Part shown: in pieces, positions 5,273 through 17,463 of the stretch
Layout: the number at the start of each line of letters is the position of its first letter
Position numbering within the stretch: position 1 is the first letter of the stretch
Assembly: GCF_036924595.1 (NCBI RefSeq)
Contig: NZ_JAZHRV010000001.1
Location: forward strand, 5,208,001-5,272,000
Direction of reading: 5' to 3'
DNA from: Bradyrhizobium algeriense
GTDB lineage: Bacteria; Pseudomonadota; Alphaproteobacteria; Rhizobiales; Xanthobacteraceae
Length of the DNA: 64,000 nucleotides
Translations under genes and position numbers: made by a program
Notes under the pieces: model-generated
What the model saw: the letters and a program-made list of their open reading frames with translations, nothing else
Databases searched by the model: none
What the model was told of the DNA's origin: nothing

Positions 5273-5423
5273 GACGACCGTAGACGACTTCCTCAAACGG
5301 GTCGGAAAGGATTATCCTCTGCCTCGTGTGGCAGAAGGGCGTAGACGGCTATGGTTGATCGACGATCTGGATGCGGCGATAGCGCCAAGCATAGTGCAAA
5401 ACGATCTCGCCGAGGATTTGTGA
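5160..5423 (+). CDS. Excisionase/AlpA-like HTH protein
   Basis: An 87-aa protein whose core, CWPRRMQAELAAGYCGE followed by TTVDDFLKRVG and RRRLWLIDDLDAAIA, has the layout of the small winged-helix DNA-binding proteins found next to integrases (AlpA/MerR-like excisionases: the helix over AAGYCGE, recognition segment, and basic wing ending in LW-DDLD). A recombination directionality factor or integrase regulator is the likely role. Its stop codon overlaps the integrase start by 4 bp (GTGA at 5420-5423), so the two are translationally coupled. The start is uncertain: 5160 is the only in-frame ATG upstream of the WPRRM segment, and no strong ribosome binding site precedes it. Confidence 0.6.
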   Translation: MECERACILTRPRRPSIIPVGCWPRRMQAELAAGYCGETTVDDFLKRVGKDYPLPRVAEGRRRLWLIDDLDAAIAPSIVQNDLAEDL

Positions 5424-6829
5424 CTGTGACTGTGCCATTGCCCCGCCACGTCATTCCCAAACAGCTCGCGGGCGGCGAAACGGCTTACTACTATAATGTG
5501 CCGACAAAGTACCGAAAGCTAAAGTGCCCAGTCGAGAACGAGCCGCTTGGCACCGACTTCGGCGTGATGACGAAGCGCGCAGGTGTACTGAACGGCCAGT
5601 TCGATGAATGGGACACGCAGCGCAAGGGGCTTCCGATCAGCGCGCCCAATATACCGAAGTACGGCACGGTTGATTGGCTGTTCCGAGAGTACAAGATCAG
5701 CAGGGCCTATCTCGATAAGGTCGCGGTGCGTTCGCGCGATGATTATGAATGGGCGATGGATCAGGTCTGCAACACACTCACCAGGAAAGGGGATCGCGTC
5801 GGTGACCGCCTTGTCAAAGCGATCACGCCACGCGCCGCTGACAAGCTCTACGACAAGTTCATCGAGCGCGAAGACGGTGAGCGCCTGAGGACGGGCGAAA
5901 AGCTGGTCGTGCTCTGCCGCAAAGCCTGGCGTGTGGTCCGTCGCCTCTTCCCAGACGAATTTCCGAAGGACGTTCCGAACCCATGGGTCGGCGTCACAAT
6001 GAAGACGCGCGTGAAAAAGAAAAAGCCGGCCGTGACGCGAGACGAGGTCTACACATTTGCCCATGGCTGCATCGAGCACGGCGAGATCGAGGCGGCGGCG
6101 GTCGCCGTCATTTGTTTCGAGTGGCTGCAGCGCCCAGAAAACGTCATCGCCGGACATATCAAATGGAGCGGCTACCGTACCGGTCCCAAGCCCACGATCC
6201 GCATCGAGCATCACAAGACCGGTGAGATCGTCGACCATCCGCTCGAAGATGGCGACGTCAAGTTTTATGAGGAAGCTGAGGAGGTACTGTCGCAGTTGAA
6301 GCGTCTCGGCACCCCAATGATCCTGTACGAACTCGAGGAAGGTAAGGCCAAGCCGTTCAGTTTCAGCACGATGCAACACAAGGTGCAGCGCATGCGCGCG
6401 AAGCTAGGATTGCCGTCGCACTTTACCTTCGACGCCTGCCGGCACGGCGGCATGACTGAGCTGGAGGAGGCAGAGCTGACCGACGGACAGGGCCGTGCGC
6501 TGTCGGCGCACCGGACGCGGCAGAGCTACATCGGCTACGCGAAGCGCACTGAGAAGCGCGTCCTGGCAGCAACCCGCAAGAGGCACGCGCACAGGCTGGC
6601 GAACGAAATGGCGACAGACGTTCAGAATGAGCAGCAGCCAGCCGTTCAGAATGAACCCCCAGAACAAAGTGCGATTGCTGAGCAATATCAACTGGCTGGG
6701 GCGGGAGGGATCGAACCTCCGAATGGCGGAATCAAAATCCGCTGCCTTACCGCTTGGCTACGCCCCAACAGTCCGGGCCGGAACATGGGATCGACCAGCG
6801 CGACCTGTTCCGGCACCGCCGGTCTATAG
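5420..6829 (+). CDS. Tyrosine site-specific recombinase (integrase), 3' end overlapping tRNA-Gln
   Basis: A 469-aa integrase starting at GTG 5420, coupled to the upstream excisionase-like gene. An N-terminal DNA-binding and core-binding part (to about residue 200) precedes a catalytic domain in which I place the usual residues: first Arg in EWLQRPENV (about 238), Lys in HHKTG (about 266), second Arg in DACRHGG (about 341), His in SAHRT (about 364) and nucleophile Tyr in YAKRT (about 373). The domain is complete. After about residue 425 the frame crosses the antisense of the tRNA-Gln gene and stops 62 bp past it, so the last roughly 45 residues are dictated by the attachment core and the flanking chromosome. 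The enzyme most likely inserted this island at the tRNA 3' end. Confidence 0.85.
   Translation: MTVTVPLPRHVIPKQLAGGETAYYYNVPTKYRKLKCPVENEPLGTDFGVMTKRAGVLNGQFDEWDTQRKGLPISAPNIPKYGTVDWLFREYKISRAYLDKVAVRSRDDYEWAMDQVCNTLTRKGDRVGDRLVKAITPRAADKLYDKFIEREDGERLRTGEKLVVLCRKAWRVVRRLFPDEFPKDVPNPWVGVTMKTRVKKKKPAVTRDEVYTFAHGCIEHGEIEAAAVAVICFEWLQRPENVIAGHIKWSGYRTGPKPTIRIEHHKTGEIVDHPLEDGDVKFYEEAEEVLSQLKRLGTPMILYELEEGKAKPFSFSTMQHKVQRMRAKLGLPSHFTFDACRHGGMTELEEAELTDGQGRALSAHRTRQSYIGYAKRTEKRVLAATRKRHAHRLANEMATDVQNEQQPAVQNEPPEQSAIAEQYQLAGAGGIEPPNGGIKIRCLTAWLRPNSPGRNMGSTSATCSGTAGL
6693..6767 (-). tRNA. tRNA-Gln (anticodon TTG)
   Basis: The reverse strand folds into a complete cloverleaf. The acceptor stem TGGGGCG pairs with CGCCCCA, followed by G and an encoded CCA. 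The D arm is AGCC-AAGC-GGT, the anticodon loop centres on TTTTGAT giving anticodon TTG (reads CAA, Gln), and the T arm is GGAGG-TTCGATC-CCTCC. Its 3' end faces the integrase gene, the normal arrangement for an island inserted at a tRNA 3' end that restores the gene on integration. Confidence 0.97.
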
Positions 6830-13502: not shown

Positions 13503-14045
13503 GCAATGGTTTGACGGCTTATGCCGTGCTCTCCCCGGAGCCGAATTCCTCTGGCCTCCGTCGCTGCCGGCTTGATGGCTCAACCGATCCGGTTGGATCA
13601 ATTGCGCCGCCGGCAGCTTAGCATCAGCCACGGATGCCAGGACCACACGGTTTTGCCGTACGCTTCAGCGCCGTACGTCTTGCGCGCTGCGTTCGCTCAC
13701 GGATAACCGCCCTGCGAACGCCTTCACGCGCCCGACGCTGCTGCGTCCACCGCATCCCACCCCGCGTCCGTGACGATCGCGATCCGCCCCTCGTGAGGGA
13801 TGAGACGGCGAGATTTTTAGTGCTGATTTGGGGTGATCGAAAAGGAAATTGTTTTTTCAGAAGGGACTGGACGGGGCAAATCACGTTGAATTGGCTCAGC
13901 AAATTTGCGTTTTCGAGCAACGTCCATGGATGGTTGAAACCGCTGGAGCGGAAGGCGGACGGTAGTTGAGTGCACTGTCACCGTAATGCGAAGATCAATG
14001 CCGAACGAAAACGCAAACGGCTGGATCGACAGTTTGCACGGCACG

Positions 14046-15095
14046 TCACGAACGTGCTCTCTCCGGCCAATAATACATGTCTGCCTTTCTCGGAGGATCG
14101 ATATCGAATTTAAAGCCAATTTCTTTCGGGTCTAAGACAGTGATCGACGCCATCGACACGCCCTGATCTTGGATGCTGCAAATCTTTGCGGGATAACAAA
14201 AGGCCTCGCCGACCAAATAAAAACTCGCTCCAAGATCAAACGTGTTTTCTTGTACAACGGCAACGACGGCTCCATTCGAAAACCGCTCTTTGATCACACC
14301 CGCGCGATCAATTCTGCCCAGTTCCCTGACTTTTCTCAGGCACGCCCACTGAACGCACTCGGTCAAAGCAGCGCAGAGAGATTCAACAAAATTGGCGAAC
14401 TCCAAAAGCGCTTCGGTGCCGAGAAGGTCGTCAACTTCAATACCGCCATGGGCAGCATCGTTTCGATACTGAACTAGCTGGCCCAATTTTGATTCGGCTT
14501 TGTCTTCTTGACCGTTCTCGGCCAAAAAGCGCCTAATCGCTCGATGACCATCTATCCATTCCTTTACTTTGGGGATGCCGCATTTTTCGAATAGGGTCGT
14601 TAACTCACTCATTCGCAGATTTTGATCGTGCGACAATAATGCTTCCGGCAACAAACGATATGTACCACCGTTGAATATATTTTTGATGTCATCCAAAACG
14701 CTTTCAAACCTGATGGTGCTTTTGTATCTTTCCCGATCTAAATCAATTAATATTTGACCGACAGCTCGCCGATGTTGCGTTTGAAATTTATCATCTAGGT
14801 CAGTGTAGGCAACGTTACGCTCGATGAATTGAAGATGAGCAGTTAGGAGATCCTCAACAAATTTTTCGTATACCCCGTATAAGCGAGTAATTGCAGAGCA
14901 ATGATCTATGATGCGCCATTCGATGGAAGTGGGCGCGCTTTGATAAAGCAGTCCAACATCGAAGCACAGTCCGGCTGCGTTATTGCATCGCAGCGCTTTA
15001 TTGTTGACCATCATCCGCACGTTTGCAGAAAAGCTTATATGCTTCTTCACAGACTCAATATTTTGACGAACGCGTTCCGCAAGTATTTCATACAT
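14046..15095 (-). CDS. HEPN-domain nuclease-like protein (MAE_28990/RiboL-PSP-HEPN type)
   Basis: A 349-aa protein read from ATG 15095, which overlaps the DUF262 stop codon by 8 bp. An all-helical region at about residues 55-245 has the HEPN features: SAITRLYGVYEKFVEDLL in an early helix, and the catalytic signature QYRNDAAHGG near its end, that is R-x4-H with Arg at about 211 and His at about 216 and a polar residue after the Arg, as in active HEPN RNases. The last 100 residues form a separate beta-rich segment. HEPN toxins cleave RNA in abortive infection, toxin-antitoxin and CRISPR effectors. Coupling to a DUF262 partner suggests a two-gene defence module. AT-richer codon use than its neighbours points to transfer. 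Confidence 0.78.
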   Translation of the reverse strand: MYEILAERVRQNIESVKKHISFSANVRMMVNNKALRCNNAAGLCFDVGLLYQSAPTSIEWRIIDHCSAITRLYGVYEKFVEDLLTAHLQFIERNVAYTDLDDKFQTQHRRAVGQILIDLDRERYKSTIRFESVLDDIKNIFNGGTYRLLPEALLSHDQNLRMSELTTLFEKCGIPKVKEWIDGHRAIRRFLAENGQEDKAESKLGQLVQYRNDAAHGGIEVDDLLGTEALLEFANFVESLCAALTECVQWACLRKVRELGRIDRAGVIKERFSNGAVVAVVQENTFDLGASFYLVGEAFCYPAKICSIQDQGVSMASITVLDPKEIGFKFDIDPPRKADMYYWPERARS

Positions 15096-16281
15096 GAGAG
15101 GATAACGCCCGCTCAAGCATCTCAGAGAAGAGGCGAATGCGGTCTTGCACGTCCCTTTTGGTATTGCCTCGGCCGGTGAAGACGCCGTCCTCGTTCGAGC
15201 GAAAAAGCTCTTTAGTTTGTTCAACTATTAGAGCCGATCGAGCTGACAATTCCGCAATTTTGCCGATATGATTGGAAAGCCCGACCATCACAGCATCATA
15301 AAACGCCTTATGAGGATTCGCCTCCCAACGATTGTTAGTCGGGTCGAACGGACGGAACGCATGGTCTTCATATATGAACGTTGCGAGATTTAGTGTGGTC
15401 GCAAACAGCTGACCTAATTCCTGAATATCTTCGCTATCGAATTTCGATGCTTTCGCCATGTAGAGGTCTAGAAAACCTTGCATTCCCCTCGTGTAATGAT
15501 CGGCGTGACGCAGAGCAAAAAATCTAAGGACCAATTCAAGATCACCCATCTTTGAGTAAAACGAACTGCTCAAAAGAGTTGAGTTCTTCTCGATTTCATC
15601 TGGAACATATCGAGGTAAGCCCCACGCTTTCCGGAAGGCATCTAACCTAGACAATTGCAAGAGAAGATCGTTGAAATCAGTTCTATACAAAGCGTTCCTG
15701 ATTTCTTGGCGCTCCAATGCAACGCCGCCTGTATTCAATCGTTCGAAGACAGTCTCTCGCAGGAAAAGGGCTTCATCCTCATCGGCAGTAGATTCTTTTA
15801 AAAGCACGATAGAGGTAATGGACCTGCGATCTATACCGGCCTGAAGTTTATCCGGCAGATTCCGATACAGCCGCCCGTTCAGCTCCGGCCACATTTCAAG
15901 CCCAGTAAGCTTCAAGTTATTGTCGTAGAATTCCTTCAGCGCGGTGACGCGCTGCTGTCCATCCATCACTTCGTAAGAGTTAAATTCCTTTTCATAAAGG
16001 AAGATAGGAGGAACCGGTATGTTCATGATGAACGATTCAATCAGCAAGCTTTGCTTTTTGGCGTCCCACCGCGGACGACGCTGATAGAATGGACGAAGAT
16101 CCATGTAGTTTGGCTTTTTCATCGCTTCCACGAAGCCAGGAAGCTTTTCACGGTTCGTCTCGATGACAATCCGCCCCTCGCCGCGAGAATATCTTTCATC
16201 GATGGCTCGATCGTCGCTCGGCAAGGCAACTTCGTCTTTGGTGGTTTCCCACATCTTTAGTTCGCTGGCAGCAAAAGGCAT
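15088..16281 (-). CDS. DUF262 (ParB/Srx-fold, GmrS-like) protein, partner of HEPN
   Basis: A 397-aa DUF262 protein. The diagnostic residues are present: RPFYQRRPRWD at about 63-73, then YEVMDGQQRVTALKEFY with DGQQR at about 107-111 (the nucleotide-binding ParB-like motif), and FERLNTGGVALERQEIRNAL further on. DUF262 is the N-terminal half of the GmrSD and BrxU type restriction enzymes, where it binds and hydrolyses nucleotides and senses modified DNA. Here the usual DUF1524 HNH nuclease half is missing and the downstream overlapping gene supplies a HEPN domain instead. A purine-rich site (GGGGGA) precedes the start at 16281. It is the first gene of the operon and probably the sensor or control subunit. 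Confidence 0.9.
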   Translation of the reverse strand: MPFAASELKMWETTKDEVALPSDDRAIDERYSRGEGRIVIETNREKLPGFVEAMKKPNYMDLRPFYQRRPRWDAKKQSLLIESFIMNIPVPPIFLYEKEFNSYEVMDGQQRVTALKEFYDNNLKLTGLEMWPELNGRLYRNLPDKLQAGIDRRSITSIVLLKESTADEDEALFLRETVFERLNTGGVALERQEIRNALYRTDFNDLLLQLSRLDAFRKAWGLPRYVPDEIEKNSTLLSSSFYSKMGDLELVLRFFALRHADHYTRGMQGFLDLYMAKASKFDSEDIQELGQLFATTLNLATFIYEDHAFRPFDPTNNRWEANPHKAFYDAVMVGLSNHIGKIAELSARSALIVEQTKELFRSNEDGVFTGRGNTKRDVQDRIRLFSEMLERALSSHV

Positions 16282-16441
16282 AACGTTCCCCCAATTCCTT
16301 CTTCATACTATCAGTAGAGCGACGCCGTAAAGGCAACTGTTGTTATAATTCGCGATCTTACTGGATACGGCCGACGTGACATTCGGTGCAACCCACGTTG
16401 CAAACAATGTTACAGGGAAGACCCAATGCGAAGCGGCCGCT

Positions 16442-16606
16442 TATTGCTATTACCAGGTAAGCACACAACGCCAGGGTAGGTCGGGGCTCGGGCTAGAGGC
16501 CCAGCGGAAGGCCGTAAATGATCGCCTATGCGGCGATGCCGCATTAATTTCCGAATACACCGAGATCGAAAGCGGCCGCAAAAATGACCGCTCAAGGTTA
16601 GCGCGG
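16442..16606 (+). pseudogene. Serine recombinase N-terminal remnant
   Basis: Translation gives YCYYQVSTQRQGRSGLGLEA, then QRKAVN, EYTEIESGRKNDRSRL. This is the start of a serine resolvase/invertase-family domain, including the S-T of the nucleophile segment (usually YxRVSTxxQ, here Arg replaced by Gln) and the downstream ExESG motif. About 55 residues remain of a normal 180-550. It is cut off just before the 3' end of vapC. It marks past mobile-element activity beside the HEPN-DUF262 operon. Confidence 0.75.
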
Positions 16607-16656
16607 GATCACGGTGCCAGTGCACTTTACTCGTTCTGCACCCTCGCTCGCCGCCT

Positions 16657-17058
16657 TCATCTTTGGACCGGCACCTCGATCAGTCCCAAATACCGCGCCA
16701 TAGGCCGGAAATCGCTGTCGTTGTGGAGCAGCGGCCCGCGATTTTCGATGCACCAGGTGCCGATCAAGAGATCGATGGTCTTGCGAACCGTGATGCCGCG
16801 CCGGCGCAAGGAACGGAAATTGCGGGCGGCTGCGGTGGCGATCGCGTCGCCGGCCATCGATACGATCTCGAAGCGTCGCAACAGGGCCTCGACCTCCCGG
16901 GCCGCCCGCTCGCTGTCGAGACCCTGCAGCACTTCGCAAAGCATCAGGTCGCCCACGACGATCTCTTCTGTGCCGAACAGCGCACGGAGGTGCCGGACGT
17001 GCGGCTTATTGCGGCCGTTGAGGAAGTCGATCCAGACGCTGCTGTCGACGACGATCAC
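16657..17058 (-). CDS. vapC: VapC-type PIN-domain ribonuclease toxin
   Basis: A 133-aa single PIN domain. The acidic residues that bind the metal are present: D5 in VVDSSVWID (with D11), E42 in LCEVLQG, D96 in TIDLLIG, and D114/D116 in LLHNDSDF. Length and order match VapC. Toxins of this family are Mg-dependent endoribonucleases that cut tRNA or rRNA when the antitoxin is lost. Its start overlaps the vapB stop in ATGA (17055-17058), giving strict antitoxin-toxin coupling. The catalytic set looks complete, so it is probably active. Confidence 0.92.
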   Translation of the reverse strand: MIVVDSSVWIDFLNGRNKPHVRHLRALFGTEEIVVGDLMLCEVLQGLDSERAAREVEALLRRFEIVSMAGDAIATAAARNFRSLRRRGITVRKTIDLLIGTWCIENRGPLLHNDSDFRPMARYLGLIEVPVQR

Positions 17059-17258
17059 CCGGCCGCTCGTCCCTTGCGACTGCGGGCGAGGTTGCCGCGC
17101 CAGCGGTATTTGCCGAACGCCCCGCCAACTTCCTGCTGCCTTCGCAGCCGGATCATCAAGCGGAGCGCCTGTTCCACCGTCTGCTTCTTGGTTTGCTGTC
17201 CGGAGGCTTTTTGCGCTTCCGCCATCAGCGCGTCGTCGATCTCGATATTGGTGCGCAT
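17055..17258 (-). CDS. vapB: VapB-family antitoxin
   Basis: A 67-aa protein from MRTNIEIDDALMAEAQKASG. The first 40 residues form a ribbon-helix-helix type DNA-binding domain (TNIEID strand, then helices), and the C-terminal part with FGKYRWRGNLARSRKG is the toxin-wrapping tail, matching VapB proteins of the Psk/DUF2191 type. I place the start at 17258 rather than 17312, because the upstream 18 codons cover the operator. It is followed immediately by vapC with a 4-bp overlap. VapB should neutralise VapC and repress the operon together with it. Confidence 0.88.
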   Translation of the reverse strand: MRTNIEIDDALMAEAQKASGQQTKKQTVEQALRLMIRLRRQQEVGGAFGKYRWRGNLARSRKGRAAG

Positions 17259-17276
17259 GGCCAGCGCTCCGTCGCT

Positions 17277-17306
17277 ATGTGTATAGACCGATACTACTAT
17301 ACACAT
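17277..17306. promoter_or_regulatory. vapBC operator palindrome
   Basis: ATGTGTATAG (17277-17286) and CTATACACAT (17297-17306) are exact inverse complements separated by 10 bp. The element lies 19 bp upstream of the vapB start, where a ribbon-helix-helix antitoxin would bind. The AT-rich arms may also contain the promoter. Confidence 0.75.
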
Positions 17307-17379
17307 CAGCACGCCACAATAGGCGCGGCATTAAGGCGTTTGGGTTTCGTTGCGCTCTCGTACGAAATGGCTTCAGCCC

Positions 17380-17463
17380 GTAGGATGGGTGGAGCGCAGC
17401 GATACCCATCGAATGCGATGTAGAACAGTGATGGGTTTCGCTTCGCTCTACCCATCCTACGAG
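17380..17463. repeat. Palindromic intergenic repeat, family A copy 2
   Basis: The same element as 12527-12610, in the same orientation: GTAGGATGGGT at 17380-17390 and ACCCATCCTAC at 17450-17460. A half-copy (TTTCGTTGCGCTCTCGTACG) sits just before it at about 17345. It abuts the 3' end of the dioxygenase gene. Confidence 0.85.

Follow-up and report, generated by a model that had tools for sequence, protein, structure and literature searches.

The window, by which we mean the whole stretch of 64,000 nucleotides of Bradyrhizobium algeriense DNA analysed here, carries on its reverse strand a gene for a DUF262 protein and a gene for a HEPN protein, which we consider probably to be a horizontally acquired two-gene defence module with a gated HEPN ribonuclease (RNase) aimed at the RNA of translation. 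That DUF262 and HEPN genes pair is already known; what we add is the identity of the beta-rich tail of the HEPN protein. The parts of this reading are not equally firm: a defence role of the pair is likely, a nucleoside triphosphate (NTP)-dependent gate in the DUF262 protein, suggested by analogy with related systems, is the option we favour, and translation RNA as the target is a tentative proposal. A first-pass annotation made from the sequence alone had singled out the two genes, and on re-reading the sequence its coordinates, strand, 8-bp overlap and motif positions were all correct.

The HEPN protein consists of a helical HEPN part (about residues 1-258) followed by a C-terminal beta-barrel. 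Its initial assignment, which relied on the motif RNDAAH at residues 211-216 (fitting the catalytic pattern R-x4-6-H), is borne out by two Pfam families, HEPN_RiboL-PSP (PF18735; E 3.1e-18, 66.8 bits, cut-off 28.4) and HEPN_MAE_28990 (PF18737; E 1.2e-13, 52.2 bits, cut-off 26.8), which at a permissive E<=10 also match 69/70 and 70/70 relatives, respectively. R211, N212 and H216 are invariant across 70 aligned sequences, and RNxxxH is present in 64/64 full-length partners (see below). Judged by these features of its sequence, the protein very likely acts as an RNase effector. The structure model (pLDDT 94.4) is confident in the helical part; when the whole protein was used as query, no solved structure matched the HEPN part among the 50 matches listed, and a PDB sequence search gave a single match, with E 1.

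A beta-rich C-terminal domain had been noted before as one that could not be named. The domain is present, but it can be named: in the predicted structure it is a barrel like domain 2 of elongation factor Tu (EF-Tu), the 50 structural matches listed being C-terminal domains of peptidase U32 and translation factors, all over residues 254-349. By sequence, Pfam GTP_EFTU_D2 has no match in the window HEPN protein at E<=10, nor does any other Pfam model over the barrel; GTP_EFTU_D2 matched in 3/70 relatives (best E 0.02), and a PDB sequence search with the barrel profile gave no match. Profile-profile comparison of the barrel with U32_C gave a weak match (pairwise E 0.0016, 80 colinear columns, probability 16%), while seven control comparisons, with other domains or reversed profiles, gave E 0.041-0.79. 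The tail thus has a fold in common with translation-factor domain 2 and the U32 C-terminal domain, but the window protein contains neither a GTPase nor a U32 domain and has the barrel fused to HEPN instead. In literature searches, with subscription papers mostly outside their reach, HEPN with an EF-Tu domain led only to an unrelated system, as far as the accessible text of that source goes, and neither RiboL-PSP nor HEPN combined with ParB, two-gene, anti-phage and tRNA cleavage led to any paper.

The DUF262 protein matches Pfam GmrSD_N/DUF262 (PF03235) above the curated cut-off (E 1.1e-24), and its DGQQR motif, recognised at first sight, lies at residues 107-111 and is kept in 82/82 aligned DUF262 proteins (80 relatives, the window protein and L083). 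By sequence it is a member of a family with a ParB/Srx-type fold, and it has no detectable HNH nuclease: as had been claimed for DUF1524, neither protein of the pair has a Pfam match to DUF1524/HNH at E<=1, and no DNase domain was matched by Pfam in either. Its match to BrxU spans BrxU residues 1-421 of a chain of 580; a PDB sequence search gave no match. An NCBIfam scan gave no family above cut-off. The best PADLOC match is NsnA, which we take to be the DUF262 gene of Menshen (8.5e-67, residues 37-393), and the next is PD-T4-2_A (4.3e-33, residues 54-360). The partner in the window is, however, the HEPN gene instead of NsnB, and no NsnB-like gene was found beside the DUF262 gene, the insert described below holding two genes only. 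The NsnB model (345 positions) matches in 14/14 control genomes, and given matches in all controls NsnB is probably a common ATPase family; a literature search on NsnA/NsnB gave only unrelated papers among the matches listed.

DUF262 is a component of GmrSD, BrxU and SspE, and Menshen includes a DUF262 gene (PMC10952713; here and below, statements attributed to cited papers reflect the accessible parts of their texts). In BrxU and SspE, DUF262 hydrolyses NTP, and in SspE recognition of modified DNA lets this NTPase activity switch on the nuclease domain (PMC10952713). The window pair shares DUF262 with these systems, and DGQQR with the GmrSD/BrxU type, but is without the DUF1524 HNH domain. 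Analogy with BrxU and SspE makes the first-pass suggestion of a DUF262 subunit that senses infection and activates an RNase plausible. On the same analogy, we propose that the DUF262 protein would bind NTP and, complexed with the HEPN RNase, keep it silent until infection is signalled, most likely by phage DNA, perhaps modified as in GmrSD, BrxU and SspE; the nucleotide state of the DUF262 protein would then change and the RNase be set free. Next, the barrel would dock the enzyme on tRNA or ribosomal RNA (rRNA), and the cutting of that RNA would halt translation and end in abortive infection. In its most specific form, with a translation-factor domain guiding a defence RNase, so that the barrel delivers the HEPN site to the tRNA acceptor end or the ribosome once infection has made a ParB-fold NTP switch let go of the enzyme, the proposal is more speculative still than the choice of target. 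Since the barrel has a name, the target class becomes testable, as tRNA and rRNA instead of merely some RNA. More generally, several defence systems make use of DUF262, whose best-studied associates are DNA nucleases, and the present branch pairs the same switch with a probable RNase in several phyla.

The strongest competitor concerns the barrel only, which might serve dimerisation, autoinhibition or the binding of another protein and not be aimed at translation RNA at all. We regard this as close to an even call, for a common fold does not show function, the sequence similarity is weak, and the barrel is less conserved than the HEPN part (mean identity 33% versus 39%). Set against it are the identity of the structural matches, U32 C-terminal domains and translation factors throughout, and the existence of short HEPN-only partners (234-271 aa) that have RNxxxH and no barrel match. 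The DUF262 proteins beside them are more distant relatives and come from viral contigs (L111-L118, 8/8, with identical DUF262-HEPN pairs in L112 and L113), the P2_4B2 phage, one Bradyrhizobium plasmid and one same-family genome. Because they still pair with DUF262, pairing does not require the barrel, which is thus optional in the partner, and such natural barrel-less relatives are a ready comparison set for its function. Two further plasmids and a P2-like Vibrio phage have partners of long size (355-377 aa), and a Nostoc plasmid has its HEPN partner split over two frames; in all four the barrel-profile matches are weak, and in two also misplaced. In a DUF262 tree of 79 rows, arbitrarily rooted and built with a program warning of long branches meeting, one change separates long from short partners (support 98/82). 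A single gain of the barrel may have made a translation-targeted enzyme out of a HEPN-only partner; the tree does not tell gain from loss. Relatives from Microcystis, from which the MAE_ family names presumably derive, fall within the same tree. Three remote viral DUF262 loci (L119-L121, 27-30% identity) had no match to our own HEPN profile and were not scanned with Pfam. A tblastn search of HEPN against plasmids and phages gave nothing at 1e-5, because the HEPN partners there, found via DUF262, are too diverged, and a scan of viral_contigs with the HEPN alignment matched 71 stretches, of which 0 were confirmed.

Scanning the DUF262 protein against 84,980 species genomes gave 338 relatives, and the top 80 were examined here. 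Rare adjacency of the two genes had been named beforehand as grounds for abandoning the idea of a pair; the next downstream gene on the same strand matches the HEPN profile in 76/80, more often than chance would give. Of these partners, 64 reach full length (at least 320 aa); the other 12 are shortened, and of these some lie close to the end of a contig and others are interrupted. Three of the four remaining loci are cut by a contig edge, and the fourth (L047) has a methyltransferase-like open reading frame (ORF) with no HEPN match. With start codons as chosen by the script, 4 of the full-length partners overlap the DUF262 gene, 59 start within 30 bp and 1 starts at 51 bp. Pairwise identities of the two proteins correlate across 65 members with r 0.94 (two proteins only, no third gene being compared), and in all these pairwise comparisons DUF262 is the more conserved (mean 57% versus 37%). 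The pair occurs in Pseudomonadota, Cyanobacteriota (especially), Bacteroidota, Acidobacteriota and others.

Adjacent and sometimes overlapping genes carried by plasmids and phages would also suit a toxin-antitoxin element, in which the HEPN RNase is the toxin, the DUF262 protein the antitoxin, and defence a by-product of addiction on mobile DNA, or absent. The HEPN frame is in two or more pieces beside an intact DUF262 gene in, for example, L033, L051, L076 and L084, as expected if HEPN is harmful, in a sample where DUF262 was the bait, so that the reverse case (intact HEPN, broken DUF262) is not visible. We nevertheless consider this explanation unlikely, since DUF262 is the more conserved partner and keeps its NTP-site motif throughout, which seems beyond the need of a plain neutraliser, and since PD-T4-2 is a working defence system. 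Deletion of PD-T4-2 from its native strain greatly raises T4 plaquing, and PD-T4-2 protects against T4 (Vassallo et al. 2022, PMC9519451); it is tabulated both under DUF262 and under HEPN PF18735 (PMC10952713). It thus shares a DUF262 subunit and a PF18735 HEPN partner with the window pair, whose HEPN protein is, however, longer and barrel-bearing, without a match at E<=1 to the PADLOC model PD-T4-2_B (168 positions), and whose DUF262 protein scores higher to NsnA.

PD-T4-2, with its same two domain types, is one reason why the novelty claimed at first was overstated; the other is that the pairing was tabulated in 2013, the Ribo L-PSP-HEPN family being listed as 'operon with ParB' and the MAE_28990 family as 'in operon with a ParB nuclease and DNA methylase genes' (Anantharaman et al. 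2013, PMC3710099). These are the same Pfam HEPN families in the same kind of operon as in the window, but the accessible text of that paper describes no EF-Tu-like barrel for them and ties a 'novel beta rich domain' to the MAE_18760 family. The methylase genes of the MAE_28990 operons, a DNA methylase upstream of DUF262-HEPN in 2/4 plasmid relatives, and the place of DUF262 within GmrSD, BrxU and SspE lend some colour to a system resembling type IV restriction, in which recognition of phage DNA falls to DUF262, the HEPN partner attacks phage nucleic acid, and the cell does not kill itself. We rate this somewhat below the toxin-antitoxin explanation: the pair has no Pfam DNase domain, HEPN enzymes studied to date are mostly RNases (PMC3710099), and the window insert showed no methylase ORF. 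Nor was any conserved third gene seen, a same-strand ORF of at least 120 aa within 150 nt being present upstream in 20/80 loci and downstream in 12/80, and the upstream ORFs differing by eye (for example Mg-chelatase-, response-regulator-, carbamoyl-phosphate-synthase- and glutaminyl-tRNA-synthetase-like). Separately, a methyltransferase gene together with DUF262 and HEPN (L085:2367-6936, forward strand) fills over half of an 8.2-kb mobilizable Tabrizicola plasmid, a compact natural test case.

Returning to a horizontally acquired defence module, the earlier proposal of a candidate defence system is upheld indirectly, by carriage on plasmids and in P2-like phages, by insertion at a variable site and by kinship with PD-T4-2, while enrichment in defence islands was not shown. 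The pair is AT-richer than its neighbours, as had been noticed: GC is 46.1% in the HEPN gene and 48.0% in the DUF262 gene, GC at third codon positions is 47% and 53% against 76-87% in seven neighbour genes measured, and no 2,236-bp stretch of the window is lower in GC than that of the pair (0.470; window mean 0.627, standard deviation 0.032). HEPN is present in 1/296 sampled genomes of the family and 1/385 of the class, in each case the genome that the window comes from, and DUF262 at E<=1e-60 in 2/296 sampled family genomes. Flank matches to six same-genus stretches stop at 13896-13932 in four and earlier in L103 (13151) and L102 (13346), and restart at 16670 (L103), 16773 (L107), 16889 (L106) or past 17370, and because they end and resume there we place the insert as given in Table 1. 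Between the flank matches lie 117 bp in L103 and about 0.6 kb in L102, and L107 has 51 bp between the equivalents of 13925 and 16773.

The other three same-genus stretches (L104, L105, L106) have 4.4-4.9 kb of other cargo at this site, which accepts alternative cargo, part of it resembling defence genes: a 1432-aa protein (L104:8437-12735, forward) with nSTAND3/NACHT matches of E 0.003-0.004, under the cut-offs, and no PADLOC match at E<=0.01; a radical SAM/SPASM protein (L105:9062-10477, forward) matching prokaryotic viperin models at 5.6e-12; and a two-gene module of HATPase_c_3 and metallophosphoesterase (L106:7247-11066, reverse), possibly an undescribed defence pair. The relative in the P2-like Vibrio phage sits in the repressor-integrase interval, and that in P2_4B2 near the replication-gene end, presumably where P2 keeps tin/old. 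This carriage by phages and plasmids, with the very patchy distribution in family and class, the low GC and the variable insertion site, makes a housekeeping or regulatory RNA-processing operon with no defence role highly improbable, despite the spread of the pair over several phyla, especially cyanobacteria. Flank scans of 24 non-cyanobacterial loci covered 102/127 eligible ORFs (170 aa or more, contig-edge ORFs excluded), namely 101/120 drawn plus L003:3075-4691, hand-added as interesting-looking; with the first 25 families per list and no control set, they gave only scattered defence genes among the matches listed, and we therefore make no defence-island claim.

Table 1 Features of the DUF262-HEPN locus in window coordinates
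Feature	Position	Strand	Remarks
DUF262 protein gene (GmrSD_N; ParB/sulfiredoxin-type fold, probable NTP-binding)	15088..16281	-	397 aa; C-terminal half helical
HEPN protein gene	14046..15095	-	349 aa counted from ATG at 15095
C-terminal beta-barrel of HEPN protein, predicted EF-Tu domain-2 / U32-peptidase C-terminal fold	14058..14306	-	residues 264-346
Start/stop overlap ATGTATGA of DUF262 and HEPN genes	15088..15095	-	8 bp; read from sequence
Low-GC insert (GC 0.485), ~2.7 kb: DUF262 and HEPN genes, serine-recombinase remnant	13926..16669	.	bounds approximate; from same-genus flank matches
Probable serine recombinase N-terminal domain remnant, within insert	16376..16620	+	bounds approximate; Pfam Resolvase

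The overlap of the two genes may couple their translation. The recombinase remnant matches Pfam Resolvase with E 0.0032 and 18.0 bits, under the curated cut-off of 23.3, and the two insert edges share no direct repeat longer than 10 bp. Three of the neighbours (GcrA, a 368-aa ORF and a glyoxalase-family gene) have no PADLOC match at E<=0.01; the remaining one is, by Pfam, a VapBC pair beside the insert (16657-17312, reverse; PIN 5.4e-15, VapB 2.4e-13), which seems part of the flank because L103, L106 and L107 (3/6 same-genus stretches) have homologous DNA in this position. Elsewhere in the window, an element of ~85 bp at about 17375-17462 is matched many times, on either strand, in same-genus genomes and is an interspersed, perhaps palindromic repeat, and a 492-aa ORF at 5351-6829 (forward), by eye resembling a phage-type integrase, overlaps a tRNA-Gln gene at 6693-6767 (reverse), a possible integration site.
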